This document shows, piece after piece, positions 6,301-64,000 of a stretch of DNA of 64,000 nucleotides (the first letter of the stretch is position 1; every line of letters starts with the position of its first letter). The stretch is from Cheilinus undulatus (taxonomy: Eukaryota; Chordata; Actinopteri; Labriformes; Labridae). The stretch covers positions 46,001 through 110,000 of the forward strand of contig NW_024571693.1 of the NCBI RefSeq assembly GCF_018320785.1, in the 5' to 3' direction. The position numbers were made by a program, and so were the translations under genes. The notes under the pieces were generated by a model. The model did no database searches, had not been told where the DNA came from, and saw only the letters and a program-made list of their open reading frames with translations.

Positions 6301-6816
6301 CACACTTTACCTCTCCCAAGTTGCACTTAGTTCCTTATACTTAAACAAGAAAAAGAAAAGACTGAATAGCAGAGGAAACTCAGTTACTCCAGCATGGATC
6401 TGTTGAGCTCTGATGTCTGCCTTTCAGAAGTGAAAAATAAAGAATTAAAAAAAAAAAAAAACACAAACATGCTAATTATATTTTGTGTTTTGTGCTCTAC
6501 TCTCATGAAAAGTATTAATGTGGCACTGTGTGTGTATGTGTGCGTGTGTGCACACATGCTTGTAGATGACTGATTTGATCTGTTTTATTGTTACTATTTA
6601 TCTGCCCAGGGATGACTGATGAAATAGCTAGTGTTTATGATACAAAGCATCTCTGTCTAGAGACTAATGTTATTTCAAACATTGTCCCAGAGACATATAA
6701 ACTTGATTAAAATAAACTAAACAAAGCTAGGGATGACCATAAGGCCCAATGACCTTCACCCTCAAAATTTAACCAGCTCATCCATGAGTTACAGTGTTTT
6801 TTTTTATGTAATGTCT

Positions 6817-6855
<39 letters not shown>

Positions 6856-31629: not shown

Positions 31630-34600
31630 CTGTTAAATGACAAAGTAAAGGATGTTTTAAAAAAGCAGAACAAAGGTGTCCAAAATGATTTTTATTTAAA
31701 TACAGTTCAAACCATGATAAAAACCTGACAAAGTGATAGTTTCTTAGTTTCACACATCTTCCTTTAGTACTTTCTGTGCTGATTTTTTTTAAAGATTTAT
31801 TTCTGGGGCTTTTCATGCCATTATTTAGAGAGGAGGACAGTGGATAGAGTTGGAAACAGGGAGTAGTGAGTGATGATTATTTTCAAACTAATTCTTGGGG
31901 TTTTTACTTGTGTTTTGGGCAGAAAATGAATCAACTGCAACACACCAAAGACAAAACATTATTCTTTCAGTCATTAGAAACTGTGAGAGAAATAACAGAG
32001 AATGACAAGTATGTTAAATATTACTTACCAGAGTCCTTGTTGGTATCTGGAGGTCCAGAGGTCTGCTGGTCAGGAACCTCTACAGATGTGAACTCTACAA
32101 ATGGATGAAACATAAAAGTACATTGATTTTTAAGATAAAATAGTGACCCTGTTTTATTCTTTTGGATAACCTACGGTTGAACTCACCAGTTTCCTGGTCA
32201 GTGTTAGAGGCTGCAGCTTCTGCCAGGCTCTGGTTGGAAGTTTCTGGAGTCACTGACTCAGTCTCTATTAAATACAACAACACAATAACAAGTAAGAATT
32301 TTAAAACACCTTTAATACCTGAAGCCACGATGTCTGTCCCACCCCAGCCTGGATGACAAAAGCTAAATGTCTTTACTGGATGTTAGAACTAGCCTCAAGC
32401 TTAAAAATCTTAAAGTAGTAAATAACTTTAAAAATAATGCAGAGAAGGGCATTTCCTTCTCAGATTAAGAGGAGCTGACACATTTGAGTAGAAGTCCCTT
32501 AAATGATGTACTGAACTTGGGTAAACATATTAAGCCGTTTCCCAGAACAGGAAACTCTTCCATGTTTTTTCCAAACTGTTTAGGGTAAAACTCTCATGGT
32601 TAGGATTTTAAAAGTAACTAAACTAAACTAACTGAAACACCCTTGGTTGATTTTCTACTATCAGTCTTCTGTAACTATTTTGAACACCACTTTGTTTTTA
32701 TGTTTGGTTTAATAACATTTTACACACCAGCTCCATTGCTGAGATGTTGGGTAGTATCAGTTTGTCCTGAAACAAATGGTAGAAAAAATCCATTGTAAGA
32801 TAACTGGTGAATGATTTTGTTCTAAATCAAACAAGTTTTCTCATAGTTTAAACATGTTTCAGAATAGGTTCAATAGCATTTCATTACCTTCACCATCAGG
32901 AGATTGATTAAGTGGATCCATCTCATGTTCAGGCCCTATCAAGATAAAAATAATTACAAAACAATGTAGTTGATCACCATCACCTAAAACAGCAAACTGG
33001 AAAACAAAATGATAAGTCTAAGCATTTATCATAAATCTATGTTGACAACATTTTTTATTGTGGTTATGGCTGTTATAGCTAAGAAGAGTAGCTCAATAAA
33101 GTGACACTACAATTTCTGCTGAAATAAAAGGAAAAAATACACAGGCAAGCTTAGCATGTTGAAATTTAATAAGACTCATTTGAGAATTATGTTTATTTTC
33201 TAAATACGTTTTCTTATCAAACATTTAAGAAAACATTTTCTATCTTACCATCTAGTTCTCTTGGCCACTTTTCAATGTATTAAACAGAGAAAAGCATGTT
33301 GTAAATCAGTCATTCATAATGTGATCATCATTAAACATTAATCATGCTTAAGCAGAGAGTCACCAAAGATGGATCCTGACAGCAGAACATACATATATAT
33401 ATATATATTATATTACTGATTGTATTTCATTAAGATTTTTTCAGTTAAATATTGATTATTTGGACTAATAAATCTGATAGGGCAAAAACATTAAAAACAA
33501 CAAAGCAGCACTCTAATTTCCCCTGAAATAAAAAGGAATTCAATGATCAAACTGAATCTTGTCTGTTTATAGATACTACATTGGTTGTGATAAATACATG
33601 AAAAAAATTAAGTAATAGGTAAATTCTGAAATTTACATAAACCACAGTTGAAGAATGTTTTATTTCTCAATATGTAGTCTTTTCACATGTTTAACAAAAC
33701 ATTTAGTTTCTTACCCGCTTTCATTGCATTTGTGTGTTGGACAAAAAAAAGCATGTTGTGAATCAGTCATTCATAATGTGATCATCATTAAACATTAATC
33801 ATGCTTAAGCAGAGTGTCACCAAAGATGGATCCTGACAGCAAAACAAACTCAAACATCTTAAAAACACTGATTGTATTTAATTAAGATTGTTTTCAGTTC
33901 AATATTAGCTATTTAGACTAATAAATCTGGTAGAGAAAAACTATTAAAAACAACAAAGCAGCTCTATACTTTCAGCTGAAATAAAAAAAAGAAATCAACT
34001 GATCAAACTGAATTACTGTCTGTTTATAGATACTATATTGGTTGTGCTGTTAAAAAGGAACACATATCTAAATTCTGAAATTTACATGAACCACAGTTGA
34101 AGAATGTTTTATTTCTCAATATGTTGCCTTTTTACATGTTTAACAACAAACTTAAACATCTTAATATGACTATTATCACATTACTGATTGTATTTAATAA
34201 AGGAAAACATTTTTGTGTAAAATCAAATATTTGGATTCATAAATCTGATGGAGCAAAACTATTGAAGTACCATAAAGTGACGCTACAATTTCTGCTGAAG
34301 TAAAAAATTATATAATGCATGTTAAAAGTGAATAAACTATATATTGAACTATCTTTCAATATACTTTTATATCAAACATTTACGAGAACATTTTCTATCT
34401 TACCATCTCGGTGTCTTCGCCACTTTTCTGTGTATAAGACAGAGAAAAGCATGTTGTAAATCAGTCATTCATAAAGTGATCATCATTAAACATTAATCAT
34501 GCTTAAGCAGAGTGTCACCAAAGATGGATCCTGACAGCAGAACAAACTCAAACATCTTCATATGATTTTTATTATATTACTGATTGTATTTAATTAAGAT

Positions 34601-37600
34601 TTTTTTCAGTTTGATATTAATTATTTAGAATAAAAAATCTGGTAGAGAAAAACTATTAAAAACAACAAAGCAGCTCTATACTTTCAGCTGAAATAAAAAA
34701 AAGAAATCAACTGATCAAACTGAATTATTGTCTGTTTATAGATACTACATTGGTTGTGCTGTTAAAAAGGAACACATATCTAAATTCTGAAATTTACATG
34801 AACCACAGTTGAAGAATGTTTTATTTCTCAATATGTTGCCTTTTTACATGTTTAACAACAAACTCAAACATCTTAATATGACTCTTAGCACATTACTGAT
34901 TGTATTTAATAAAAGAAAATATTTTTGTGTAAAATCAAATATTTGGACTCATAAATCTGGTAGAGCAAAACTATTGAAGTACCATAAAGTGACGCTACAA
35001 TTTCTGCTGAAGTAAAAAATGATATAATGCATGTTAAAAAGTGAATAATCTATATAATGAACTATGTTTCATATACTTTTTAAAAAAAAAAATCAAATAT
35101 TAAAGAGAATATTTTATATCTTACCGTCTATTTCTCTTTGCCACTTCTCTGTGTATTTGACAAAGAAAAGCATGTTGTAAATCAGTCATTCATAATGTGA
35201 TCATCATTAAACATTAATCATGCTTAAGCAGAGTGTCACCAAAGATGGATCCTGACAGCAGAACAAACTCAAACATCTTTATATCACTTCTATCAAATCA
35301 CTGATTGTATTTAATTAAGATTTTTTTGTGTGTTTGTTTAATAATCATAATTTCTGCTGGAATAAAAAATAATTTAATGCATTTTAAAAAGTGAATAATC
35401 TATATACTGAACTATGTTTCAATATTCTTTTTATTATCAAACATTTAAGAGAATATATTGTATCTTACTGTATTGTGCTCTTCGCCTTCTTTCTGTATAT
35501 AAGAGAAAGAAAAGAATGTTGTAAATCAGCCATTAATGATGTGATCATTATCAGTCACTGACCATGCTTTAGCATTGTTTTATATTTGATAGTGACAGTG
35601 GAAAGAACATAAGGTACTCCTTCATCAGACTTAAACCACAGAACTGATCTGTAGGTAATTTTGACTTTTTGTTGAAAATCAAATATTATCACTTATAAAT
35701 TTGTTAGAGCAAAACTACTGAAAGAACTCATTATTACTGAATATTTTATCAACACAATGAATTCTGGCTTCTTACCCCTGATGAAAAATACAGCAACCCC
35801 AATGAGTACCAAAACAATCACTACTACTACTGGTACAAGGATGGATATCAGCCGCTCCTGTTCTTCTATAAAACAAAAAGTCAAATGTATTTGGATGATG
35901 TTGGTTAATGCTTTTGTTTGATATTGTGGTATTGTTAATATGCAATGTTTCTATAAAGATAAAAAATCAGTGCTTATAATGAGGATGTTTGTCAGTGGAA
36001 CTACTCACGTTTAATGATGGGGTTTGTGATGCTTTCACTGGTTTCATTGCTGACTGGGTTCATCATCAAACATCTGAAACTGTACTCCTTTGAATCCTAA
36101 ACATTCAGAGAAAGAAAATCATGAAAACAGATTAAGAAAAAAAAAGCTCATATGTTAAAGAGAGATTAATGTTGTTAGTTTTTCATACCTTTGTTATAAT
36201 CAACTCCTCATTTGAAGGTCCATGCTCGCCATCTATAAACCACGTATAAGTGATTGGTTCAGCCTCTGCAGTGTTGCCTTCACAGGTCACATCACAGTTG
36301 GTCATCTCAGTGTTGCAGGATGTTTCTACAGAGGGTTTAGCTACACGAGCTGACAGAAGAAAGAGCAAAAATACGGGGTACTTTAGGGTACTTGAGGTCA
36401 AAAGAATTTGAAGAATGATCTGGTGGTGAAACTTTATTTAAAAAATCACCACTCACAGATAACAGAGAGCTGAGTCTTGCTGGAGACTTTGTAGTTAATC
36501 TCTGGTGTGTAGATGCCACTGTCGTTCAGGTTAAGTTCTTTGATGGTCAGTTCTCCAGTATCAGTGTTCACCTCACAACGACCTAAAATCATAAACAGAC
36601 ATGGTGACATGTGACAGCAGGCAGGGAGAAAATGTAAAACAGGGAGAAATGGGGGATAAACACTGTGGTGGGTCCCTGTTTTTATTATATTATTATTTTA
36701 TTCTATGTTTCAACTGCATTACTCATCAGTAGACAACTACTGTAACCACAGACCTTTCACAAGCATACATCTTTAAAGATGGATTGCATTAATGGTCTGT
36801 AGTGAGTTAAAACATCTCTATCACTCTTAAAAATAAAATTTAGCTCAGTCCAGTTCAAGGGTTAAATGCTCTTTTAAGGTATGTTCATTTTCATTGTTTT
36901 ATATTTGAGAGCTCCGAAAGAATTTACAGTCTAAGGCTCTGTTCACATGACAACGTTTTCAAGAGAAAACTCCGTTCACACAAGAGCGGCATTTTGGTGC
37001 CTGAAAACAGAACTTTTTGGAAATGGGCTCCAGAGTTGAAGTTTTTCAAAACACCCCCATCTCTGTGTAAACAGGGAAAACAACACTTTCTGAAAACACA
37101 CATGTGCTCTACGGCTGCAGTCAGCTGTCAAGCACAAGTGTCTCAGCACTCTGAACAGAGCTGTGGCAGCTCGAGCCGTCTGATATAGTTTACTGTGATT
37201 CAGCTTGTCAAGACACAGCAGCTGGATTTAGAAAAGGGGAAACATTATTCTCGTTTGGAGGGCAATCAGTGCCAGTTTCTTTAGATAAAGTCATGTTATT
37301 AATTTTGGAAAAGATTACTTTTACCTTTTTTATTGATCATTATTTTAATCACCGTCATCATCATCGTAGTGAGGCAGAGAAATTTCACGGCTCATATTAA
37401 CAGAAAAAAATGCTTTGCTAGATCAGTCTTGTTATAACGTAGATATCTGCTGAGAATCATTAATTCCCCACAGACAAATTCAGCTCCTACAGCCTCTAAT
37501 TTCTTGTGGATTTTCTTATAAAGTGCGGCGCTGCTCATGAGCACAGCTGGAGCCTTTTTTCAGACCCATATTTCTATTTTTCCATATATCTGCTTCTTGG

Positions 37601-40600
37601 AAATGATTTAGACTTTATCTTTTTTCTTTAAGTTTTAATCAGCTAACTGCACATCAATGTGCAGCTGATGGAGGAGACAGCTTCTGTGTTTGGGTTAAAA
37701 AGAAAGTTAATCACTTCCAAGAAGCAGATCAAATTGAAAAAGGGGAAGTATATTGTTCTGAAAAGGCTATCATTCTTTTGCTGCACTTAAAGCAGGAAAC
37801 GCTGCACTTTCTTAGAAAATCCACAAGAAATCAAAAGTTTTAGGAGAAAAAATTGTCCCTTGAAAATCAAACAGTTGCAAGACCAGTCTATGATAAGACT
37901 GGTCTTGCAATTCATTTTTGCATTTATATGTGTTGTAAAATTTCGCTGCCGCGCTACGATGGTGATGAGGAGGATTTAGTGATGAATTACTCTCATGAAC
38001 CCAGGGCTTGACATTTACACCTGCCAACTAGCCAGATGTGGGTGGATTTCGACCGTGGCGCATAGGCGTAGGAACCGGGGGGGATGGGTGGGATGTGCCC
38101 CCCCCAATATTGGAGACAGGGGCATTTGCCCCACCCAAAAATTATATTCCAGAGGAGAAAAATATTTGATTTTGAAATTTTTAACTTATTTTTATTTTGA
38201 AAGTGCAACGCAGCGTCCTGTCACCGCCGGCCCCCTCCCTCACCACACTGAGAGTGTTTGAGAGGCGGGAGACAGCAGCAGACAGCAGGTTGTCTACTGA
38301 CAGAAAGTCTTTTGAACAAGGTAAAACAGTCTGTAGGGAATGTTGCCATGAATATGGCTTGTTTATAACTTCATGTTGTTAATTCATATTCATATTTAGA
38401 AACTATATCTTTTGAGTTGAGTTATCTTTGGTCACTTGTCTACTAACTTCTTCAGTGTTCCCAAGTAACGTCAACGCTAGCCAAAATGTTTTGTCATCTC
38501 ATTTCAGTACAATGCCACCACTGAAGAAAAGGCTGAAACAGCAGCAAGACTTGCTTTGTGTTTTCAACAAGAGTAATGTTAGTGTGAGTAACGGTTACAC
38601 AACACAAGGACAACAGGAAAAGGAGAGGATGGCATATGGCTTGAAGTGAGGTTAAAATAAATTAGTGAAAACTTTTACTGTAAGGGTTAAGTTATGCTGT
38701 AAACAGAGTTGACAGTGTATGAGCCTATATACATCTGCAAATCAGTAGTTAAAAGTCTTCATTCTATATGACAAAAACCTTAACAGATATTTTTTTAGCT
38801 TTTGTAAGTCAAATGCTGATACTCTACATTACTATATGTAATGTTGTCTTGTAAAAATATTAATGCCATGCAGGGACATCAAGGGCTTGAGGGAGTCAAA
38901 GTGAGGGAGAGACAGGAACAGACCAGTAGGTAAGAGAGAGTAACATATAACAGTAGATATTTTACAGGAGTTCACAAAAAAGTGGAAACATGGAATTGCT
39001 TGCTTGTAATAGGTGCAGTCCCATGGCATTGTGACTTTTCCTTTTAGGGTGTCCAGAGTTCTGTGTGTGCTACTAATTTTGTCTTTGTGCTACTGAAATA
39101 TTTAGCTTGCTAGTACCAGTACTGCCACCTGATAAAGTAAGCGTACAGCCCTGGAATGATATAATCATTATGCTTTGCTTAAAGACTCAAGCCATTTTGT
39201 TCAAGAGGAAGAGAGAAGTGTTTTTTCTGGTTGGTTTGCCCTCATCTTAAGATCATAAAACATAAACATACAGATTCTATACATGCATTTATATAGGCGT
39301 GCACAGCACTATTTTTCCAAGAAACATTTGAAAAAAAGAAGAAAGAGTAAAAGATCACATAGCATTTTGTGAATGTTTTGCAGTGTAGTTAATTTATGAC
39401 ATATTTCTGCTCAAACTATTTACAAATCTGTCAGATTTCCAATATGTGTCTCCCCCCCCAGTGTTAAACTCATTCCTACGCCCTTGCTGTGGCGAGTAGC
39501 AACATGAGACACACAGATGAGGACAGGAGAAGTTTAACACTCAACATTCTCTGATGGAGATCTGTCAGAGTGAAAATTACTGATGTTCTTGTAGTCTGCT
39601 GTAGTTTTTCCTGATAAACAGCCAATTTACAGGATTTTAATATTATCATAAACTTAATATCCATTAAGAAGTAAAAATCCAAGACTCTTGACTCTTAGAT
39701 GACCGTCTCTAACAGTGAAGTATGACATGTCTCTGTGTTGTTTCAAATGTACAGGTAGAAGTGCTTTATTAAGAGGAGAGCTGATATTGATCACACTGAT
39801 GAGGGAAAGTAGAGCATGTGTGTCATATCATACCCTTTGGACCACATTTGGCATATAGCTCATAGTTTTGAAACACCAAAATTGTGGCTAGTGGAAATAC
39901 TGAGTGGCTAGTAAGTTTGCAAAACCACTAGCCATCGTGGCTGGTGGGCAAAAAAAGTTAATGTCAATCCCTGCATGTACCTATGTATGATAAAAATGTT
40001 TCATATTATCAAAAACACATGAAAAACAGTGAATGTGCAGTACTGTGCTTGTTGTAGAGACAGTTTTACTGTGCAGTAAATCACCTTATTACAGCGGTTT
40101 TTGTTTCCTGCGTTCTCGTGTAGACAGAGATTGTTTTCAAAATGTGAAACTTTTTGGAAATGAAAATGGAAAACAAAGCAAAACGTTGTCGTGTAAACAA
40201 AGCCTAAACAGTCATTAAAAATACACTCAAGTAATCTCTTTACTTCAAGTTTCCATAAAATGACTGTAATAACTGAACTGAAGTGGATATTAATGGATTC
40301 CAGTCATGGTTACCTTGTATTCTGTTTCTGTGGTGTAGTGGTGAGCTAAGAAGAAAAGCTGGGTGGTTTCTGTGGTAATGTGATGTAGACATCTTTAAAA
40401 CAGAGACTTCAGTGTCCATACATGTGGCTAAGACTTTGTACAATCTGTGTTTTCTTTGAAAGACATAATAGTGTAATAATCCTCCAACACATCTGAAACT
40501 TGCAGACTTCCACGCTGTCTCACCAGAAGTAAAAAAGTCGATTTTAAGGGACCAGTCTTGTCAGCATTATTTTAGATTTTGATAACTGCTCAACAACAGA

Positions 40601-43600
40601 AATATGATAATTACATTTTGTGTTTTTTGCTCTACTCTCATGAAAAGTATTAAAGTGACTGTGTGTGTGTGTGTGTGTGTGGGGGGGGGGGTATATGTGT
40701 CTGTGGGTGTGTGTGTGGGTGTGTATGCACATGCTTGTAGATGATTGATTTGATCTGTTTTATTGTTACTATTTATCTGCCCAGGGATGACTAATGAAAT
40801 GGCTAGTGTATATGATACAAAGCATCTCCGCCTTCTTGAGAGACTAATGTTATTTCAAATATTGTCCCAGAGACATATAAACTTGATTAAAATAAACTAA
40901 ACAAAGCGAGGATGACCATAAGGCCCAATGATCTTCACCCTCAAAGTTAAACCAGCTCATCCATGAGTTAGAGTGGGTTTTGCAATTTTAGATATTAACT
41001 AAATTTACAAGAAGGTCCAGGAAGGACTGACAACACAAAAACATAATGCCCCTGGCATCGTCTATAGCTGACATCTGATAAAACATCTTATTTACACTGA
41101 AAACATGTGAAAGCCCCACATCAATCTATATCTTAAAATAAACTTTAACCACAATCTTAATCTGTCTCGTTTAAAAGTTTTCTCTCCTAGAAAAACACTC
41201 AAACCAGTGCAAAAAGCATACAGAAAGATAAAAGATCACAGATATCATAATTGTTCCCCTGGGAAGCCAGCTCACTTTGAGCTGTTCAGAGGCTGATGGC
41301 AGTCAGAACAAAATAGTTTTTGGTTAAATAGTTCTACATGTAACATATCTGGGGTCAGACAGGGGCAGCAAAACCTCCTTGAAAAAGGTTTGGTTCATCC
41401 AGGATCAACTGGACCTTTTTAAGAGTTCTGACTTTGTATCATTTAAACAGCTCATTCAGAGTAGTGCTAATTTTGCAGCACATATGCACTAAGTCCAGCA
41501 ACCTGTTCTTGTTTTTTAAAACAACCATAATAAAGTCACTATAAAATACCTTCAAATGTCTTTTATTTGACAAACCAAATAGTTGAATTCAGATCAAGCT
41601 GCTTATGTTTTCAAGAGTAGATAAACAAGTATATTTGTAAGAAAATTTACCTTGAATACCTTGAATTATCTTTAATTTGTTTCTCTGTTAACATACCCAA
41701 AACTATGATTATGATCAAAGGTGCTGCTTATGTTTTCAATCAGAAATAAACATATTTTGGTACATTCATAAGTAAATTTACCTTTAAACTGGCCAAAACA
41801 CTCAAACTCGTTTCCATGCCAATCTGCTGCAATATCCTCATTGTATTTCCACTCTATGTTTTTGATAGGAAGATCCATGGGGGGTGGTCTGAGGACAGCA
41901 TCTCCACCTATAGCCATGTAAATTTGGTCAACTGTAAAAGAAGGACACCAAAGGTCATTATTGAATATTTGTAGTCTTATCTAAGTTATCTAAATCACAT
42001 TCTGAACCATTTCTTAATTCATGAGCAAAAAACAAAATGCTCCTAAAGCAGAAGTTGTCTGAAGTTATGCTACAAACTTTTTCCCCACACAACTAAGACG
42101 GAATCTACAGCAACATAAATTCATTTATTTAGTTATTCATTTGAATTTATTTAACCAGGAAAACCTCACTGAGATTAAGAATCTCAGCAGCACAATGAAC
42201 AGAGCTGCAAACATGAAACATTAAACATAAGAAACACTACAAACACAGATCAACCAACGACTGGTTCACAGAGCAGAAAGTCATCAGTCAAAATATCTAC
42301 AACCTGATCAATCTTCCTCTAATACCTTTAATCTTTACATTTTTAAAATAACTTTAACTTTAACAACTTACCTGAAACTCCTCTTACTCATCACAAGCTA
42401 AAGATTTAAGGCATTGGGAAGATGCACGCATGTACAGAGTGTCACAGTAATCAATCACAGGTATAAAAGTGGCAGAAACAAGACTTGTCTCTGATAAAAA
42501 AAAAAACAAAAAACAAGAGGGTTTTTTTTTTCCAGAAAAGAGTAAGTGTTTTGAAAATGGTGGCATATGTCTATATTATGTAATAGATGGGGGTAAAATG
42601 GTATCATCTTTCGTTCTGGGGTGTGTAATAAGCCGTGCTACATTTGTGACTCAGTAGGGGAGACCAGGGGCAATTGTAACACACTAAATTCCTCCAATCA
42701 GAAACAAGCTTGAGTGATAAAACTAACTCTGCACAAACTCAGAGGGATTCTCTCTCTGCCTGTTGAAAAAGAGCAGGAATACTTCCACACCACAGAAGCT
42801 GTCCACAAAAAAAAAAAGATTTTTAGGTACAAAGCTTACTTTGTGGTTTGACAAATGTTTTTCTTCTGCTGTCTAAAGTTTAGATGAAAGTAAAGTCAAA
42901 CTCTGTTTAATTTCATCCCTGGCCTTTTGGTAGAAAAAACAACATGAACAACCTCTCCTAACATAAGTGCTAGTAGCTAATATGAGAGACTTTATTATGG
43001 CTGCTGGGTCAGGGGCAACTGTAACGCTGTGGCTGGGGTCAGCTGTAACACTGATTCAATTGTGTTCTAATTGCCATAGTCGACTACAAGCCATACTGCC
43101 TCATGTAAGCAAATGCGGACTTAATTTTGCTTTTTAAGAATAAATATATTTCACACATTTTAAAAGAAAAAATGCACTTTAATAAATCATGTTTGTGTAG
43201 TGATGTTAATGTGTCTATTCTGCAGTTTTATTAAAGTTTGGCTACAGACAGTTCTTAACTGATGAATCTGAAATGACCGTAATAGATCCAAATAATAAAA
43301 ATGTTCTGCGTAGAAAATAATTCTTACTGTGACTTATTAGTGCAATAAGACTTGGTGTGTCCATAAATAGATACATCTTTTTCTATGAATTCATATTACA
43401 GCCTTCTTGAATTGGGGAAATAAGAGACGATACTGAAAAAGAAAACTTGGAAAATTTATGTGATACTGTAACAGAAATGGGAATACTTTAAAGTTAGCCC
43501 TAATCTGAAATATAGACGGTAAGTATGATGCCAGGGTATCCACAGGGTAGCTCAAATTAAGGCCATTGAAAGGTAGTAAAAGGTAACAACCGCAATTTGA

Positions 43601-52812: not shown

Positions 52813-53238
52813 GTATTATGTATAATAGAATAATAAAATAAGAATATAAGTTATTTAATAAGTTTTGTGTTTGTAAATTAGTTTCACTAACTAAGGATAA
52901 TTTTCTGTCTAAAATGAAATATTTGGACTAATAAATCTGGTAGAGCAAAACAATTGCAGAAACAACAAAGCGGCTCTATAATTTCTGCTGAGATTGAAAA
53001 AAAAAGGTCAAACTGAGTACATGTCTGTTTATAGATACTATACTGGTTGTGCTAAATACTTTATGTAAACTACAGATTTGGTGTTTAATATTTTAAAACA
53101 GAGAATACAGGCATGTTATACATGTTCAGATGAACTAATATCTTAATTCTGATATTTAAATAAACTACAGTTGAGAAAAGTGTTAAATTTTCAATATGTT
53201 GTCATATCAAAAATTTAAGAGAACATTTTGTATCTTAC

Positions 53239-55261
53239 CGTCTCCTTCTCCTTGCTGCTTTTGTTTGTCTAAGACAGAGAAAAGCATGTTGTAAATCAGT
53301 CATTCATAATGTTATCATCATTAAACATTAATCATGCTTAAGCAGAGTGTCACCAAAGATGGATCCTGACAGCAGAACAAACTCAAATATATTAATATGA
53401 CTCATATTACATTACTGATTATATCTAATTAAATAAATTTTTTGTGTAAAAATAAAACATTTGGACAAATAAATCTGGTAGAGCAAAACTATAAAGAAAA
53501 AAAATACAAAGTGACAACAATTCTGCTGAATATTGAAAAAATAATTATAAACAGGCATACTTTGTTAACAAAATGAATAATCCACATTTGAGAACTATTT
53601 TATTTTTTAATGTTTTCTCATCAAACATTTGAAAGAACATTTTGTGTCTTACCACATCATACATATTCGTCTGTGTAAAAGACAGAGAAAAGCATGTTGT
53701 AAATCAGTCATTCATAATGTGATCATCATTAAACATTAATCATGCTTCAGCAGAGTGTCACCAAAGATGGATCCTGACAGCAGAACAAACTCAAACATCT
53801 TGATAAGACTCATATTATATTACTGGTTGTATTTAGTTAAAAGATAATTTCTCTTTAATAATATATATTTGGACTAATAAATCTGGTTGATAAAAACTAT
53901 ATAAAACAACAAAGCAGCTCGATATTTCCTGCTGAGTTTGAAAAAATCAACTGGTTAAACTGAATTATTGTCCGTTTATACAAACTATATTGGTTGCGCT
54001 AAGTACTTAAAGTGGACTATAGATTTGGTGTTTAATACTTGAAAACAGAATACAGGCATGTTATACATGTTAAAAATAAACTAATAACTTAATTGCAATA
54101 TTTAAATAAACTACATTTGACAAATACATTTTTGTTTTAAATTGTTTTCGCATCAAACATTTAACAGAACATTTTGTATCTTACCGTATACTTCAGGTAG
54201 TTCATCTATTTGTGTGTATAAGACAAAGAAAAGCATGCTGTAAATCAGTCATTCATAATGTGATCATCATTAAACATTAATCATGCTTTAGCAGCCCAAC
54301 ATCAACTGATACAGTTGATGTTGGGCTGTATCAGTTTGTCCTGGAACAAATGGTAGAAAAAATCTATTGTAAGATAACTAGTGAAGGATTTTTCTCTAAA
54401 TAAAACAAGATTTTTCATAGTTTAAACATGTTTCAGAATAGGTTAAATAGAATTTCATTACCTTCACCATCAGGAGGTTGATTTAGTGGTCTCATCTCTT
54501 CTTCAGTCCCTATCAAGATAAAAAAAAATAGTAATTACAAAAAACAACAAATAAATCCTGTTGTTTATAGCTATTGTAGTTAAACACCATCACCTAAAAC
54601 AGCAAATTGGAAAACAAAGTGAAAACTATGAACATATATCACAAATCTATGTTGTCAACATTTTTACTGTGGTTATGGTTTTTATCGCTAAGAAGAAGGT
54701 AGCTCAATAAAGTGACTCTACAATTTCTGCTGATATTAAAGAAAAAATACACAGGCATGTTAAAAAATGAATAAGCCACATTTGAGAACTATGTTTAATT
54801 TTCAATATGTTTTCTTATCAAACATTTAAGAGAAAATTTTCTTTCTTACCTTGTAGCTCATGTCGCCGCTTTACTGTGTTTAAGACAAAAAAAAGCATGT
54901 TGTAAATCAGTCATTCATAATGTGATCATCATTAAACATTAATCATGCTTAAGCAGAGAGTCACCAAAGATGGATCCTGACAGCAGAACAAACTCAAACC
55001 TCTTAATCAGACTTACATTAATGACTGCATTTAATTAAGGATAATTTTGTTTAAATTTAAATATTGGATTTAAAAATCTGGTTGAGGAAAACTGCTGAAA
55101 AAAACAACAAAGTGACGCTACAATTTCTGCTTGAAGAAAAATGATTTAATACATCTTAAAAAGTGAATAATTTGTATATTGAACTATGTTTAAATATAGT
55201 GTTTTATCAACATTTAAAAGAACATTTTGTTTCTTACCGTCTAGTTCTTTTTGCATTTTTT
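53239..55261 (-). CDS. Gene D distal tail exons after a second duplication
   Basis: 55,238-55,261 (E-K-M-Q-K-E-L-D), 54,850-54,873 (V-K-R-R-H-E-L-Q), 54,462-54,509 (copy of the 48-nt exon), 54,185-54,205 (D-E-L-P-E-V-Y), 53,653-53,670 (D-E-Y-V then an in-frame TGA), 53,239-53,268 (D-K-Q-K-Q-Q-G-E-G-D). These lie where gene C has its terminal exon. Sequence left of about 55,400 switches from gene C-like intron to microexon-unit sequence, so a deletion or unequal exchange replaced the ancestral 3' end. If 53,653-53,670 is included it would be the last exon. Confidence 0.55.
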
Positions 55262-58200
55262 CTGTATATAAGAGACAGAAAAGCATGTCGTAAATCAGTC
55301 ATTAAAAACAAATGCTTCCTTGTTTCTGCACAAGCATTTGTTCAAATGCTCTGATGGTGTGAGCCACATAAACTAGTGAAATGTTATTGTTTTGTCCTCT
55401 ATTTCTAAAATTTATTTCTGGGTGTTTTATGCCATTATTTAGAGAGGAGGACAGTGGATAGAGTTGGAAACAGGAATGAGAAAGTGATGATTATTTTCAA
55501 ACTATTTTTGGGGGCTTTTACTTGTGTTTGGGAAGAGAATGAATCAACTGCAACACACCAAAGACAAAACATTATTCTTTCAGTCATTAGAAACTGTGAG
55601 AGAAATACCAGAGAATGACAAGTATGTTAAATATTACTTACTAGAGTCCTTGTTGGTATCTGGAGGTCCAGATGTCTGCAGGTCAGGAACCACTACAGAT
55701 GTGAGCTCTATAAATTGATGAAACATAAAAGTACATTGATTTTTAAGATAAAATAGTGACCCTGTTTTATTCTTTTGGATAACATACGGTTGAACTCACC
55801 AGTTTCCTGGTTGATGTTAGAGGCTGCAGCTGCCGGGCTCTGGTTGGAAGTTTCTGGAGTCACTGACTCAGTCTCTATTAAATAAAACAACACAATAACA
55901 AGAAAGAATTTTAATACACCTTTAACACCTGAAGCCACGATGTCTGTCCCACCCCAGCCTGGATGACAAAAGCTAAATGTCTTAACTGGATGTTAGAACT
56001 AGCTTCAAGCTTAAAAAGCTTAAAGTAGTAAATAACTTTAAAATAATGCAGAGAAGGGCATTTCCTTCTTAGATTAAGAGGAGCTGACACATTTGAGTAG
56101 AAGTGCCTTAAATGACGTACTGAACTTGGGTAAACATATTAAGCTGTCTCCCAGAACAGGAAACTCTTCCATGTTTGTTCCAAACTGTTTAGGGTAAAAC
56201 TCTCATGGTTAGGATTTTAAAAGTAACTAAACTAAACTAACTGAAACCCCCTTGGCTGATTTTCTACTGTCAGTCTTCTGTAACTATTTTGAACACCACT
56301 TTGTTTTTATGTTCGGTTTAAGAACATTTTACACACCAGCTCCATTGCTGAGATGTTGGGTAGTGTCAGTTTGTCCTGAAACAAATGGTAGAAAAAATCC
56401 ATTGTAAGATAACTGGTGAAGGATTTTGCTCTAAATCAAGCAAGTTTTATCATAGTTTAAACATGTTTCAGAATAGGTTAAATAGCATTTCATTACCTTC
56501 ACCATCAGGAGGTTGATTTAGTGGTCTCATCTCTTCTTCAGTCCCTATCAAGAAAAAAAAACCCAAATAATTACAAAACAATAAATAAATGCTGTTTTTA
56601 ACTATTGTAGTAAAACACCATCACCTAAAACAGATAATTGGAAAACAAAATGATAACTATGAACATAAATCATAAATCTATGTTGTCAACATTTTTTATT
56701 GTGGTTATGGTTTTTAGAGTTAAGAAGAAGTTAGCTCAATAAAGTGACTCTATAATTTCTGCTGAAATTGAAGAAAAAATACACAGGCATGTTAAAAAAT
56801 GAATAATCCACATTTGAGAACTATGTTTATTTTCAATATGTTTTCTTATCAAACATTTTAGAGAACATTTTGTATCTTACCTTTTCTTTCTCCAAAATGC
56901 TTTACTGTGTATAAGACAGAGAAAGAAAAGCATGTTGTAAATCAGTCATTCATAATGTGATCATCATTAAACATTAATCATGCTTAAGCAGAGAGTCACC
57001 AAAGATGGATCCTGACAGCAGAACAAACTCAAACCTCTTAATCAGACTTATATTACATTATTGACTGAATTTTATTTAGGATAATTTTGTGTAAAATTGT
57101 GACACTACAATTACTGCTGAAATTTGAAAAAATAATAAAAAAACAGGCATGGTTTGCATGTCAACAAAATGAATAATCCACATTTGAGAGCTATGTTTAT
57201 TTTTAAATATGTATTCTTATCAAACATTTAAGAGAACATTTTGTATCTTACCGCCTAGTTCTGTTAGCCGCGTTGACTTGTCTAAGACAGAGAAAAGCAT
57301 GTTATAAATCAGTCATTCATAATGTGATCATCATTAAACATTAATCATGCTTAAGCAGAGTGTCACCAAAGATGGATCCTGACAGCAGAACAAACTCAAA
57401 CATCGTCATATGACTCATATTACATTAAAATTAAATTAAATTAAATATTTGTTTTCATAAATCTGGGAGATCAAAACCATTGAAGAAACAAAAAGATGAC
57501 GCTACAACTTCTGCTGAAATTTGAAAAAAATAAAAAACAGGCATGCTTTGCACGTTCATGAAATGAATAATACACACTAGGGAACTATGTTCATTTTTCA
57601 ATATGTTTACTAATCAAACTTTTAAAAGAACATTTTGTATCTTACCGCCTAGTTCTTGTAGCTGCTTTAACATTTCTAAGATAGAAAAAACATGTAAATC
57701 AGTCATTCATAATGTGATCATCATTAAACATTAATCATGCTTAAGCAGAGTGTCACCAAAGATGGATCCTGACAGCAGAACAAACTCAAACATCTTAATC
57801 AGACTTATATCACATTACTGATTATATTTAATTCTGTAGAAAATTAAATATTTGTTTTCATAAGTCTGGTAGAGCAAAACTTTTGAAAAACAACAAAGTG
57901 ACAGTATAATTTCTGCTGAAATTTGGAAAAACTATAAAAAACAGGCATGTTAACAAAATGAATAATCCACATTTGAGAACTATGTTTATTTTTAAATATG
58001 TTTTATTATCAACCATTTAAGAGAACATTTTGTATCTTACCTTTTCGATCATGACGCGGCTTTACTGTGTATTGGACAAAGAAAAGCATGTTGTAAATCA
58101 GTCATTCATAATGTGATCATCATGTAACGGTTAATGCCTGACAACTTCACAAAGGCAAATGTCCTCTGCTGCGCGTCTGACGGTTCACACCTCCACGTCG

Positions 58201-61200
58201 TCCATTAATTCCTGATAATTGGGACACCTCGAAGGGCATTAACCGACTTATACCATGGTCACTTGCCAATGAAAATGATTAATAAAACTACTAATTTATA
58301 ATTTCATATGTGATCAAAATAGAAAGTTTTACAAAAACAACAACTTCTTTTCCCTAGCAACGCCTGGTGGCTTGACTAATAACTGGAATAGCCAATCCCA
58401 TAACATTCTTAGGGAATGTAAACGTGATTCACTACTCCAGTAAATAGGCGGGCCATAGATACAAAGTCACAACGGAACAAAAAAACTAGTCCGCTCAGCA
58501 CACTTTCTGAATTTATCAATGAAAAGACATGAAGACGAGTGAGATGGAGAGTCATGTGATCAGACTATAAACCTGTAAGTTCACATGAACAGTCATCTAA
58601 TAAAAATCTTAGTTTTAGCAGACCAGCTGTTTGAATACACAGAATAATTCCTCCTTCAGCACGACGAGGTCACAGACGTGAAACAGAGCTGTCCACGCCC
58701 TGCAGGTGCTGACTCTCTGTCAGACACGTCAATATTTATCAGATATTATCATGCTGGTTTATCAGAAGCATTTCCTTTTGGCTCTACAAAGAAATAATGG
58801 CTGTTATTGTTATTGTCCACTAGGATCAAATGTCCCGGTGTCACTTTTATTAACAGCAATCTGATCATTGTCAACATGGACATGGAAAATTAATAAAAAT
58901 AAACTACATATTTGTGGGGAAGACACTATTAAACAATAAAGCTCCTTAAATAAAATTTAAAAAATTAAATGCTATTTCCCCACCAGACTCAGCATTGAAA
59001 TAGATGATTTTGTGGCCAGTAAGCCTATTAGTGTTAGTGATTCATAGTCCCAGTATTCCTGACTTTCTCTTCATGATTCCCTACATCCTCCACTGTCCTG
59101 TCCTCTCCAAATAAAGGCAACAAGCCCTTAAATAAATCTTTTTTAAAAACTATGAAATAACAGCATAAGAAATAAAACAAAAATATATACTGTACATAAG
59201 AGGTAAAAAAGGCTCTTTGATTAAAAAAGAAATATAAAATGCAGTGAGTTTAATAGTTGTTTTTTGTTACCAAATGTAGAGAATCATCAGCCCCTCTCCT
59301 CACTGACACACTGAGTCTCTGCTCCGTCTGTGAGCTGACTTTGCTGTTGTATATCCAGGCTTTTTGTCTGTCTCAGTGAATCGGCTGTTCTTTAAGCAAA
59401 ACTACAGCCCTTGATCCTTTGACCAACAGTCTGTTCAGTCATTTTGAATACTGATATTGAACATTGTTAGTGCTGATGTCTCGTTCAGCGGCAGTACGAA
59501 CAGGTGTCAGTGGAGCATCAAACTCCTTGGTGGAGGAGGTGCTGCGCTCGCGCGCTGCGCCACTGTCCAGGAGAGGTGAACGATTTAATCTCCGGTTTCC
59601 CTCTCAAGAATGGCAGGTGAATTCACCTGATGTCGCGTACATATAAAAACGTCACAGTCAACATTGGGAAGAGCACCGTGCGCCACATAGCCTAATGCAA
59701 GATGGATCCTGACAGCAGAACAAACTCAAATATCTAAATATGACTCAAATTACATTACTGATTGTATTTAATTAAGGGTAACATTTTTGTGTAAAATCAA
59801 ATATTTATTTTTATAAATATTGTAGAGCAAAACCATTTAAAAAGAACTGACGCTACAATTTCTGCTGGAAAAAAATGAATTGATACATGTTAAAAAGTCA
59901 ATAATCTATATATTGAACTATGTTTCAATATACGTTTTTATCAAACATTTAAGAGAATATTTGTATCTTACCATTGTTTTCTCGTTGCATTCCTTCTGTA
60001 CATTAGAAAAAAAGCATGTTGTAAATCAGTCATTCATAATGTGATCATCATTAAACATTAATCATGCTTAAGCAGAGTGTCACCAAAGATGGATCCTGAC
60101 AGCAGAACAAACTCAAACATCTTAGTATGACTCATATTACATTACTAATTGTATTTAATTAATGATAATGTTCTTTGTAAAATCAAATAGTGGGATTCAA
60201 AAATCTGGTAGAGCAAAAATATTGAAAGAAAAAACTAAGTGATGCTACAATTTCTGCTAAAAAATAAAAAAAAAATAATAAAAAAACAAGCATGTTTTGC
60301 ATGTCAACAAAATGAATAATCAACATTTGAGAACTATGTTTACTTTTAAATATTTTATTTATCAAACATTTATGAGAACATTTTGTATCTTACCGCATGC
60401 TTCTCTTTTGCATCTCCCTGCAAATAGTTCTCTTAGCTGCTTTACAGTGTCTGAGAGAGAGAAAAGCATGTCGTAAATCAGTCATTCATAATGTGATCAT
60501 CATTAAACATTAATCATGATCAAGCAGAGTGTCACCAAAGATGGATCCTGACAGCAGAACAAACTCAAACATCTTCATAAGACTCATATTACATTACTGA
60601 TTGTATTTAATTTAGGATAATTTTGTACAAAATTTAATATTTGGTTTCATAAATCTGATAGAGCAAAACTATTAAAGAAACAAAAAAGTGACGCTACAAT
60701 TTCCGCTGAAATTTGAAAAAAAAAAAATAAATAAATAAAAAACAGGCATGGTTTGCATGTTAATGAAATGAATAATACACACTAGGGAACTATGTTTATT
60801 TTTCAATGTGATATCTTATCAAACATTTAAGGGAGCATTTTATATCTTACCACCTATTTCTGTTGCCAGCTTTAACATGCCTAAGACAGAGAAAAGCATG
60901 TTGTAAATCAGTCATTCATAATGTGATCATCATTAAACATTAATCATGCTTAAGCAGAGAGTCACCAAAGATGGATCCTGACAGCAGAACAAACTCAAAC
61001 ATCTTCTTATGACATCAATAAAGTCACTGATTTTATTTAATTAACATTTTTTTATGTTGAATATAAAATATTTACACTAATTAATCTGGTAGAGTAAAAC
61101 TATTTAAAACAACAAAGCCGCTCTATAATTTCCCCAGAAATAAAAAAAGAAATCAACTGATCAAACTGAATTATTGTCAGTTTATAGATTCTATATTGGT

Positions 61201-63788
61201 TGTGCTAAATACATGTTAAAAATTAACTATATTTGGAATCTACATAAACCTTAATTGAAAAATATGCTTTATTTCTCAATATGTTGTCTTTTCACATGCT
61301 TAAAAGAACATTCAGTTTCTTACCCTCTTCTACTGTATCTGTGTCTAAGACAGAGAAAAGCATGTTGTAAATCAGTCATTCATAATGTGATCATCATTAA
61401 ACATTAATCATGCTTAAGCAGAGTGTCACCAAAGATGGATCCTGACAGCAGAACAAACTCAAACATCATAATCAGACTTATATTACATTACTGACTGTAT
61501 TTAATTAAGGATATTTTTGTGTAAAATTGTGACGCTACAATTACTGCTGAAATTTGAAAAAAATAATAAAACAGGCATGCTTTGCATGTTAAAAAATGAA
61601 TTATCCACATTTGAGAACTACGTTTATTTTTTAATATGTTTTCTAATCAAACATTTGAGAGAACATTTTGTATCTTACCACCTGGTTCTTGTAGCCCCTT
61701 TAACATGTCTAAAACAGAAAAAAAACATGTTGTAAATCAGTCATTCATAATGTGATCATCATTAAACATTAATCGTGCTTAAGCAGAGCGTCACCAAAGA
61801 TGGATCCTGACAGCAGAACAAACTCAAACATCTTAATATTACTCATATTCCTTATCTGATTGTTTTAATTTTAGGATAATTTTGTATAAAATTAAATATT
61901 TGGTTTTAAAAAATCTGGTAGAGCAAAACTATTAAAAAAAACAAAAACATGATGCTACAATTTCTGCTGAATTAAAAAAAAAAAAATAAATAAAAAACAG
62001 GCATGCTTCGCATTGCATGTTAATGAAAGTTATAATCCACATTTGAGAGTAATGTTTATATTTCAATATGTTTTCTTATCAACAATTTAAAAGAATATTT
62101 TGTATCTTACCGTATACATCAGTTGTGCTTTCTTTTTATTGTGTATAAGACAGAGAAAAGCATGTTGTAAATCAGTCATTCATAATGTGATCATCATTAA
62201 ACATTAATCATGCTTAAGCAGAGTGTCACCAAAGATGGATCCTGACAGCAGAACAAACTCAAACATCTTCATATGACTTATATCACATCACTGATTGTAT
62301 TTAATTTAGGATACTTTGTGTAAAATTAAAAATTTGTTTTCATAAATCTGGTAGAGCAAAACTTTTAAAAAACAAAGTAACGATACAATTTCCGCTGAAA
62401 TTTGAAAAGTTAGCAGTAAAGAGGCATGCACTTCATGTTAACAAAATGATTAATTCACAGTGAGAACTGTTTATTTTTCAATACGTTTACTTATCAAACA
62501 TTTAAAAGAACATTTTGTATCTTACCGCCTAGTTCTTGTAGCTGCTTTAACATGTCTAAGATAGAAAAAGCATGTTGTAAATTAGTCATTCATAATGTGA
62601 TCATCATTAAACATTAATCATGCTTAAGCAGAGTGTCACCAAAGATGGATCCTGACAGCAGAACAAACTCAAACATCTTCATATGTCTTCTATAAAATCA
62701 CTAATTGTATTTAATTAAGATTTTTTTTATGTTTAATATAAAACATTTGGATTAATACATTTGTTAGAGTAAAACTATTTAAAACAACAAAGCAGCTCTA
62801 TAATTTCCCAGAAGCAAAAAAAGAAATCAACTGATCAAACTGAATTATTGTCTGTTTATAGATACTATATTGGTTGCGCTAAATATATGTTAGAAATTAA
62901 CTAATATTTGAAATCTACAGAAACATCATTTAAGAAATATGTTTTTCAATATGTTGTCTTTTCACATGCTTTAAAGAACATTTAGTTTCTTACCCTCTTC
63001 TACTGCAGCTGTGTCTAAGACAGAGAAAAGCATGTTGTAAATCAGTCATTCATAATGTGATCATCATTAAACATTAATCATGCTTAAGCAGAGTGTCACC
63101 AAAGATGGATCCTGACAGCAGAACAAACTCAAACATCTTCATATGTCTCATATTACATTACTGATTGAATTCAATTAAGGATCATTTTGTGTAAAATTGT
63201 GACACTACAATTACTGCTGAAATTTGAAAAAAAAATAAAAAAAAAACAGGCATGCTTTGCATGTTAACAAAATGAATAATCCACATTTGAGAACTATGTT
63301 TATTTTTCAATATGTTTTCTCATCAAAAATCATTTTTTATCTTACCTCTTAGTTCTGTGAGCCGCTTTGACATGTCTAAGACAGAGAAAAGCATGTTGTA
63401 AATCAGTCATTCATAATGTGATCATCATTAAACATTAATCATGCTTAAGCAGAGTGTCACCAAAGATGGATCCTGACAGCAGAACAAACTCAAACATCTT
63501 CATAAGACTTACATTACTGATTGTATTCAATTAAGGATAATTTTGTATAAAATTAAATATTTGTTTTCATAAATCTGGTAGAGCAAAACTATTGAAGAAA
63601 CAACAAAGTGAAGCTACAACTTCTGTTGGAAATTGAAAAAATAACTAAATAAATAAAAAAATAGGCATGCTTGGCATGTTAATGAAATGAATAATACATA
63701 TTTGAGAACTATGTTTATTTTTAAATATGATATCAGACATTTAAGAGAACATTTTGTGTCTTACCTTCTAATTTCAGCATTATTTTTT
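53239..63788 (-). CDS. Gene D: receptor cytoplasmic tail, array of 24 small exons (5' part off right edge)
   Basis: Only tail exons are in the window; signal, Ig and TM exons should lie beyond 64,000. 24 intact-looking exons, all phase 1 and with lengths divisible by three, sum to 789 nt (263 codons) if all are used. Homology to gene C's tail fixes the direction and family: 56,497-56,544, 56,337-56,375, 55,800-55,874 and 55,642-55,707 are the counterparts of C's 48-, 39-, 78- and 66-nt exons. The remaining exons are microexons of the repeated type. No counterpart of the terminal D-V-Y exon or 3' UTR is found before the LINE at 52.8 kb. The gene may end at an in-frame stop in 53,653-53,670, use an unseen last exon, or be damaged. 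Confidence 0.68.
54292..54360 (-). pseudogene. Gene D broken copy of the 39-nt exon with hairpin
   Basis: The acceptor side and start of the G-Q-T-D exon remain near 54,320-54,345. The rest is replaced by a hairpin with 17-bp arms and a 3-base loop (54,292-54,328) that runs straight into conserved-block sequence. There is no donor, so it cannot work as an internal exon. Confidence 0.7.
55642..56544 (-). CDS. Gene D tail exons of 48, 39, 75 and 66 nt
   Basis: 56,497-56,544 (G-T-E-E-E-M-R-P-L-N-Q-P-P-D-G-E), 56,337-56,375 (G-Q-T-D-T-T-Q-H-L-S-N-G-A), 55,800-55,874 (E-T-E-S-V-T-P-E-T-S-N-Q-S-P-A), 55,642-55,707 (E-L-T-S-V-V-V-P-D-L-Q-T-S-G-P-P). Exon order and intron text match gene C at 32,029-32,935; the third exon is three bases shorter. 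Confidence 0.75.
56881..58064 (-). CDS. Gene D microexons 11-14
   Basis: 58,041-58,064 (V-K-P-R-H-D-R-K), 57,646-57,675 (E-M-L-K-Q-L-Q-E-L-G), 57,252-57,281 (D-K-S-T-R-L-T-E-L-G), 56,881-56,904 (V-K-H-F-G-E-R-K). The 24-nt V-K type starts with TA after CACAG, so its first residue depends on the last base of the upstream exon. 57,646 is almost identical to 62,526. Confidence 0.68.
58125..59697. mobile_element. 1.57-kb insert splitting one conserved block
   Basis: The block text stops at 58,124 and resumes at about 59,698. Inside, 58,130-58,140 and 58,236-58,246 form an 11-bp inverted repeat (CGGTTAATGCC), and 58,820-59,040 matches 9,220-9,440 near gene A. No coding sequence is convincing; the plus ORF at 59,464-59,646 has no recognised motif. 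Mechanism (transposon or local exchange) is unresolved. Confidence 0.5.
59972..63788 (-). CDS. Gene D microexons 1-10
   Basis: Transcript order: 63,765-63,788 (E-K-I-M-L-K-L-E), 63,346-63,375 (D-M-S-K-R-L-T-E-L-R), 62,994-63,014 (D-T-A-A-V-E-E), 62,526-62,555 (D-M-L-K-Q-L-Q-E-L-G), 62,111-62,131 (E-S-T-T-D-V-Y), 61,679-61,708 (D-M-L-K-G-L-Q-E-P-G), 61,324-61,344 (D-T-D-T-V-E-E), 60,851-60,880 (G-M-L-K-L-A-T-E-I-G), 60,394-60,450 (57 nt), 59,972-59,995 (E-G-M-Q-R-E-N-N). 30-nt and 21-nt exons alternate from 63,375 to 60,851, as if a two-exon unit had been amplified. The 30-nt type (D-M-L-K-x-L-x-E-L-G) has the spacing of a short amphipathic helix. Donors are GTAAGA, acceptors mostly TCTTAG or CACAG. 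Confidence 0.68.
60394..60450 (-). CDS. Gene D 57-nt composite microexon
   Basis: Reads D-T-V-K-Q-L-R-E-L-F-A-G-R-C-K-R-E-A-C between CTCAG and GTAAGA. The 5' half resembles the 30-nt type; the 3' half adds nine codons with two cysteines and a basic patch. An expansion or fusion of two exons by deletion of the intron between them is likely. It still has phase 1 and a length divisible by three. Confidence 0.6.
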
Positions 63789-64000
63789 CTAAGACAGAGA
63801 AAAGCATGTTGTAAATTAGTCATTCATAATGTGATCATCATTAAACATTAATCATGCTTAAGCAGAGTGTCACCAAAGATGGATCCTGACAGCAGAACAA
63901 ACTCAAACATCTTCATAAGACTTACATTACTGATTGTATTAAATTAAGGATAATTTTGTATAAAATTAAATATTTGTTTTCATAAATCTGGTAGAGCAAA

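Follow-up and report, generated by a model that had tools for sequence, protein, structure and literature searches.

In this work we have analysed a stretch of 64,000 nucleotides from Cheilinus undulatus (hereafter the window), and we think it probable that the short exons arrayed on its minus strand at 53239-64000 are the cytoplasmic tail of one gene in a tandem CD2/SLAM-like cluster, made of in-frame cassette units whose intron block likely aids splicing. The short segments are in-frame phase-1 exons and are joined in public gene models, which may themselves rest partly on prediction. The protein LOC121506665 of C. undulatus (P0002, 663 aa) contains, in order, all 14 array microexons that precede the tail exons, and for the public protein P0001 100% identity and coverage were reported in the match with a model made from the DNA only (404 aa, 24 exons, 15 microexons). 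The sequence-only reading had described 24 segments of 18-75 nt on the minus strand, all multiples of three and in phase 1; we reproduced both count and frame, and these are 19 microexons and five tail exons. The microexons are 18, 21, 24 or 30 nt long, plus one of 57 nt, each with AG before and GTAAG after it. The regular spacing of one unit per 350-500 bp did not hold up, as it is broken, for example, where about 1.9 kb separate 59.97 from 58.06 kb. The array was also thought to run off the window, which is true for one microexon and the membrane exon only; otherwise it hardly leaves the window. Because C42:110001-115000, just beyond the window, reads N, this extent was taken from P0002.

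The 14 microexons of P0002 within the window lie, in order on the minus strand, at 63765..63788 (24 nt), 63346..63375 (30 nt), 62994..63014 (21 nt), 62526..62555 (30 nt), 62111..62131 (21 nt), 61679..61708 (30 nt), 61324..61344 (21 nt), 60851..60880 (30 nt), 60394..60450 (57 nt), 59972..59995 (24 nt), 58041..58064 (24 nt, with an incomplete intron block), 57646..57675 (30 nt), 57252..57281 (30 nt) and 56881..56904 (24 nt). The unit at 62131 has lost its usual acceptor and uses a displaced AG instead. The tail exons A (56497..56544, 48 nt), B (56337..56375, 39 nt), C (55800..55874, 75 nt) and D (55642..55707, 66 nt) follow, all of them used in P0002. A longer 25th segment, E (55547-55435), has a stop codon at its end and is skipped by the public model, which continues through two 24-nt microexons (55238..55261 and 54850..54873), a second copy of tail exon A (54462..54509, ends read by eye), a 21-nt microexon (54185..54205) and an 18-nt microexon (53653..53670), whose in-frame stop codon ends P0002. 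The 30-nt microexon-like segment at 53239..53268 therefore lies behind the stop. The array holds 14 microexons, with one more beyond the window and four more behind D. In two paralogues, both on contig C24, 15 and 14 microexons separate the membrane exon from the first tail exon.

Exons A to D match the tail exons of a second gene in the window, gene C, with their order kept, as had been noticed from the sequence; together with the presence of the segments as exons of public models, this confirms that the array belongs to a CD2/SLAM-like receptor gene. The ectodomain and membrane exons of gene C (35776..41931, minus strand, public protein P0005) are V1 (41931-41782), V2 (36582-36457), C2a (36349-36189), C2b (36096-36009) and the membrane exon (35865-35776). 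Three microexons (span 34404..35492: 35492-35469, 35148-35125, 34427-34404) are followed by two further units which have lost the usual acceptor (blocks at 33838-33751 and 33381-33294) and by tail exons A 32935-32888, B 32766-32728, C 32264-32187 and D 32094-32029 (span 32029..32935). A neighbouring gene on the same strand carries six microexons (span 16689..22122: 22122-22099, 21606-21583, 21213-21199, 19223-19200, 18830-18816, 16712-16689), of which P0006 uses four. Duplications of units were seen with 85% and 98% identity. As part of C42 and C24 may be allelic, not every copy counts as independent.

Could these segments, rather than being exons, be AG...GT stretches that occur by chance in tandemly repeated intron sequence? 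The units are a repeat family, and a common phase could simply have been inherited. We called exons on C42 and three stretches of C24 with a frame-blind rule, under which the acceptor is the first AG that lies 8 nt or more beyond the intron block and has a donor behind it. This gave 74 exons shorter than 60 nt. Not counted among them are a unit in which no exon was called, a spurious call of 81 nt and three hits with an incomplete 3' end. Across these four stretches 73 of the 74 are multiples of three, the sole exception being a 19-nt exon of gene C at 33267, whose usual acceptor is lost. The commonest length is 24 nt (45/74), 21 nt occurs in 6/74 and the range is 15 to 57; the lengths (15, 18, 21, 24, 30, 57) thus differ from each other by multiples of three, which speaks against chance stretches. 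In phase 1 only one of the 74 contains a stop, whereas 38 and 13 do so in the two remaining frames. When the bases were shuffled within exons (500 shuffles) a mean of 23.8 of the 74 had a stop, with a minimum of 13. The segments are, moreover, present in public proteins. We consider a chance origin extremely improbable, and since it would survive only if the public models were wrong throughout, we take it as refuted.

More questions are raised by the way in which the exons are included. With one exception every called exon keeps the frame in any combination. The sequence-only reading had inferred that alternative inclusion could yield many variants of the tail from a single locus, which would amount to a combinatorial code. 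Skipping at other loci is suggested by two proteins named isoform X2, P0006, with four of six genomic microexons, and P0005, without tail exon B; in a wrasse relative, Semicossyphus pulcher, protein names reach isoform X14, and there is a cluster of 14 member sequences. However, the exons missing from P0006 are identical duplicates of others, and the array locus has, in the protein collection, one member sequence, P0002, with 14 of 14 included; a search of this collection with the array part of P0002 returned P0002 and no other match. A tail code of this kind seems unlikely to us. In P0004 and P0010 only the first microexons of their genes are used (6/14 in P0004), and the ends of both proteins look like intron read-through. 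Full inclusion is therefore no rule among the public proteins.

The most constant part of each unit is not the exon. Directly upstream of the microexons lies an intron block of about 110 nt, unnoticed in the sequence-only reading, which is near-invariant between copies from several genes, with a pairwise identity of 96.7% against 74.6% and 67.8% in the flanking intron. Its copies deviate from the consensus by 1.3%, whereas even the best 80-nt windows of the flanks deviate by about 16%. Its AG-free stretch has a median of 71 nt, compared with 14 after shuffling. In the array an 88-nt core lies at 63391..63478 (minus strand), with further copies at 63891-63804, 63117-63030, 62657-62570, 62247-62160, 61812-61726, 61447-61360, 60983-60896, 60553-60466, 60101-60014, 58127-58086 (part), 57774-57693, 57384-57297, 57017-56930, 55303-55283 (part), 54982-54895, 54294-54233 (part), 53779-53692 and 53371-53284. 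The best 40 of 93 candidates in a search with the block were all on C42 or at C24:17.81-17.98 Mb. No Rfam RNA, such as an intronic snoRNA, reached the gathering score in the window; eight weak SNORD11 matches in 60-64 kb had 23 bits, with 55 needed (E about 0.6). Two other ideas were also dropped. One was an RNA structure of the block, but the folding of five copies was slightly poorer than that of shuffled sequences (z +0.5 to +0.8). The other was a docking site like that of Dscam; a 13-mer complementary to the block occurs once in C42, where 0.15 are expected, and in none of the three C24 stretches.

Is it possible that the block has no splicing role and is an island of recombination or gene conversion, whose copies are homogenised while the microexons ride along? 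Block divergence is unrelated to flank divergence (rho -0.03, 48 of 55 units) and stays flat for flank divergence between 5% and 50%, so homogenisation fits as well as selection. Over 80 nt, 21 of 55 copies are identical to the consensus, and these copies come from several genes and from the two contigs alike. The two gene C units with lost acceptors, which deviate from the consensus at one site each, fit the same explanation but are too few to count for much. They are what is left of five candidates for relaxed constraint in broken units: two others are in P0002, and C24C_17834752 merely lacks a donor of the listed kinds. Against homogenisation as the whole story, the block immediately precedes the acceptor and contains the branch-point region as well as the AG-free stretch; the ten closest pairs (flank divergence below 5%) do show a lower block divergence, 0.9%; and no conversion tract emerged, one apparent case of conversion by shared variants (C24A_17858214 / C24B_17923851) being explained by the alignment at the edge of an insertion. 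We regard such an island as possible but somewhat unlikely. Perhaps both roles are combined, and the block is an exon-cassette element, at once a splicing platform for a short in-frame stretch and a homology island where units recombine; we put this forward tentatively, as a rather doubtful idea. No comparable exon-cassette module was recognised in the literature searched.

The ectodomain of the receptor is CD2/SLAM-like and nearest to members of this family. By sequence it matched CD58 (E 7.7e-11), CD2 (0.0023) and SLAMF6 (0.047), with CEACAM also present and no B7 or butyrophilin chain among 43 matches up to E 10. By fold the top four were CD58, CD48, CD2 and NTB-A, followed by CEACAM1 and B7-1. 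The Pfam profile Receptor_2B4 was found in P0002 (27.1 bits, cut-off 21) and P0020 (21.5), while P0001 and P0016 were unlisted at E up to 0.01. Members of the CD2/SLAM family have a V domain without the canonical disulfide and a C2 domain with two disulfides. In an alignment of 13 proteins the V domain has Y-T-P in place of the F-strand Cys and a B-strand stretch without Cys, and C2 has four Cys, three invariant and one nearly so, which may form the two disulfides. Like CD58, CD48, CD2, CD244 and SLAMF6, its nearest solved relatives, the wrasse receptor has a membrane-distal V and a proximal C2 domain, but each of the two is split over two exons and the tail is built from microexons. The ITSM (T.Y..[VI]) was found in the tail of none of 14 wrasse proteins and in one of nine relatives from other fish (P0020, with three motifs). 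To our knowledge CD2, CD58 and CD48 also have no ITSM, and its absence therefore bars the SAP-signalling SLAM subfamily, not a CD2-type kinship.

In the tail of P0001 a helix is predicted over residues 193-357, and disorder after it. The confidence of the helix prediction is modest, with a mean pLDDT of 55.6 and, over 191-360, values of 43-81 per ten residues. For the exon peptides pN/pS was 1.49 (25 pairs), within a neutral range of 0.59-1.64 and equalled or exceeded in 46 of 1000 simulations; we did not take this as diversifying selection, and 264 non-independent pairs gave 1.47. Purifying selection on the exon peptides was not detected in the 25 pairs, and the sequence of the tail may therefore matter little.

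To bring these observations together, we hypothesize that each unit of about 400 bp, with its intron block, tiny exon and donor, is a self-contained cassette, and that unequal exchange or whole-unit duplication adds or removes units. Because the exons are symmetrical, in phase 1 at both ends and a multiple of three, each gain or loss keeps the frame, and each such event would change the length of the tail, mostly by 5 to 10 residues. In this view the microexons are included by default and form a charged stretch, helical for the most part, that links the membrane to a disordered C-terminus. Since the tyrosine switch of an ITSM was not found, the tail is more likely a spacer or scaffold than a phosphotyrosine switch, perhaps as is thought for chicken BG tails. 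The block most likely supplies what a small exon needs for splicing, a branch-point region and a long AG-free stretch, and its copies may be kept alike by selection, sequence exchange or both.

The layout itself is already known. The sequence-only reading knew of no precedent among immune receptors for a tail of so many tandem microexons, but chicken BG genes, kin of butyrophilin and B7, are one. Their tails comprise 13 to 36 exons, each of 21 or 24 nt (PMC4046983), and the first codon of every exon is split (PMC5938342). Both are tandem multigene Ig receptor families with many tiny in-frame tail exons (14-15 in the three wrasse arrays), exon numbers which differ between paralogues, inter-gene recombination, probable in the wrasse, and tails shortened by what in the wrasse looks like intron read-through (PMC4046983, PMC5938342 for BG). 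In contrast, BG exons are mostly of 21 nt, giving the heptads of a proposed coiled coil, a length which is in the minority in the wrasse; the wrasse ectodomain is not a V of the B7/butyrophilin type, B7-1 appearing by fold only behind CD2-family chains and CEACAM1; and an invariant block is not mentioned for BG in the parts of PMC4046983 and PMC5938342 that we consulted. Schistosoma mansoni micro-exon genes likewise contain 10-20 exons of very small size, most of which are multiples of three and some of which are alternatively spliced (PMC10526429), but they encode secreted parasite proteins without Ig receptor architecture and are an analogy only. Closer by descent, P0016, P0019 and P0021 of S. 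pulcher, from the same fish family, share a related ectodomain and an expanded repetitive tail; their repeat, known from proteins, resembles tail exon C (about 26 residues) and not the microexons.

What is new, then, is another receptor family, in a fish, and the near-invariant intron block. The chicken BG manner of building a tail is now found in a different Ig receptor family, and tail length becomes an evolvable trait, open to comparison among paralogues and across wrasses. Conservation is reversed here, with the intron block almost fixed while the exon peptides drift. The units offer dozens of natural replicates for two questions, what the recognition of a microexon needs and how tandem exons are born. 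If the exon-cassette reading is true, this would be a genome device that grows receptor tails block by block and leaves the encoded peptide free to change.

In this work we have found again, on the minus strand between 53239 and 64000, the 24 short segments which the sequence-only reading had reported there and which belong to the tail of the CD2/SLAM-like receptor gene LOC121506665. The genome comprises 1.17 Gb in 46 contigs, and the contig which carries this array, C42, has 145,255 bases, of which the window takes up 46001–110000. We called 76 units, each consisting of an intron block, a microexon and its donor, after leaving out three matches truncated at the 3' end; one unit yielded no exon and one a spurious 81-nt exon. 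With the acceptors chosen by a rule blind to the reading frame, the length was a multiple of three in 73 of the 74 exons shorter than 60 nt, and stops in phase 1 occurred in one of the 74, compared with 38 and 13 in the other two frames. The frame of the exon peptides is kept, but their sequence is not: pN/pS was 1.49 over 25 independent pairs (neutral range 0.59–1.64; 46 of 1000 simulations as high), and charged residues make up 41% and 52% of two arrays. A stretch of about 2.4 kb within the array is 85% identical to itself at a shift of 1.7 kb, which corresponds to about four units, and another gene contains a 2.6 kb duplication of 98% identity. Comparison of units showed that 24-nt exons become in-frame exons of 30 nt where an AG stands six bases before the usual acceptor, and a single base change may suffice for this conversion. 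Between two array units, at 58.1–59.97 kb, lies about 1.9 kb of unlike sequence, a putative insertion. Adjoining the array, three open frames on the minus strand at 51724–52850 resemble, by a motif, pieces of a non-LTR retrotransposon reverse transcriptase.

Tails of this kind have precedents. In PMC4046983 and PMC5938342, chicken BG genes are described with 13–36 tail exons each, of 21 or 24 nt, and with read-through and recombination; PMC10526429 describes the schistosome micro-exon genes, a second and unrelated case. The array is thus a tail of a kind already known from chicken BG, and no such fish or SLAM-family tail was recognised in the open-licence literature searched.

Are all the microexons used? 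A model of the first gene on C24, a second contig with paralogous receptor genes, was spliced from DNA alone and is open across 24 exons; it agreed with the public model P0001 (LOC121506194 isoform X2) at a reported 100% identity and 100% coverage of 404 residues. The predicted structure of P0001 has a helix at 193–357, including the membrane segment, and disorder thereafter (mean pLDDT 55.6). P0002, the public model of LOC121506665, uses array microexons 14 out of 14, in order, followed by the tail exons A–D; it skips segment E (55547–55435, with a stop) and continues through two microexons, a second A and two more microexons to a stop in 53670–53653. The window does not contain the membrane segment of P0002 or one further microexon of it; the membrane exon and first microexon of the array gene must lie directly beyond, in C42:110001–115000, where 5,000 bases read N exactly from the window's end. 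Other public models count against full inclusion: P0004 takes six of its gene's 14 microexons and then reads into an intron as far as a stop, P0010 too ends early, and P0006 contains four of six. The models P0004 (loci L018–L019) and P0010 (L022), each of a C24 gene, pass a microexon and terminate after a few intron-encoded residues, similar to the read-through into introns known from chicken BG. All these public models, P0001 and P0002 included, may rest partly on prediction.

By exon searches C42 holds about seven tandem genes, all on the minus strand, in the order V1, V2 and C2 (once or several times) and then, where seen, membrane exon, microexons and tail exons A–E, with two exons each for V and for C2 domains. 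In the 50 kb read of the C24 cluster, one gene has V1, V2, C2, the membrane exon, 15 microexons and A, B, C and D, and another stretch a membrane exon, 14 microexons, A and B. The model P0014 is attributed to C24, yet its first V and C2 exons resemble those found on C42 at 7762, 5233 and 5006 (window 4800–7770). Part of the C24 cluster may have its alternative haplotype, or a near copy, in C42. A 300-nt stretch that occurs at three places in the gene cluster (5573–5872, 24823–25122 and 40200–40499) is 92–95% identical, above most of its surroundings, and may represent a second stretch that is homogenised or mobile. In sequence comparisons the ectodomain comes closest to CD58, ahead of CEACAM, CD2, CD48 and SLAMF6; by predicted fold CD58, CD48, CD2 and NTB-A lead (target-normalised TM-scores 0.45–0.50), the confidence of the predicted Ig part being 54–83 per ten residues. 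P0002 is above the cut-off of Pfam Receptor_2B4, and P0001 is not listed. A profile search in which no more than 7,999 candidates were scored listed at least 23 proteins, 14 from Cheilinus and nine from Semicossyphus, Thunnus, Mugil, Spinachia and Anabas, and other species may carry such proteins as well; among these matches the ITSM motif was found in none of the 14 and in one of the nine, P0020 of Mugil, three times. In another wrasse, Semicossyphus pulcher, tails have expanded in a second way: those of P0016 (representing 14 member sequences), P0019 (named isoform X14) and P0021 repeat a unit of about 26 residues that resembles tail exon C.

Directly upstream of nearly every microexon we found a sharp-edged intron block of about 110 nt, for which we recognised no precedent in the open-licence literature searched. 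It was measured on 55 of the 76 units; of the other 21, twelve carry a block that is truncated but highly identical, and in nine it falls below 90% identity, eight of these belonging to the first microexon of a gene and the ninth being C24B_17926085. Over the 1,431 pairs formed by the 54 units that are complete in all parts, the block averaged 96.7% pairwise identity, whereas the 150 nt before it averaged 74.6% and the 130 nt that follow the donor 67.8%. Deviation from consensus was 1.3% per site in the block, and even the best 80-nt windows of the flanks deviated by about 16%. In 21 of the 55 copies, which come from both C42 and C24, there is no difference from the consensus over the first 80 nt. 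Since these contigs may be partly allelic, the copies are not all independent, but the contrast with the flanks stands. Homogenisation could also have kept the copies alike; block divergence was flat against flank divergence (rho −0.03, p 0.37; 48 of 55 units, seven being omitted for poor upstream alignment), except in the ten closest pairs, where it was lower (0.9%). The nearest AG upstream of the acceptor lies a median of 71 nt away in 54 units, versus 14 in shuffles, and a distant last AG is a trait of exons with distant branch points. It is likely that the block has a role in the splicing of these receptor tails.
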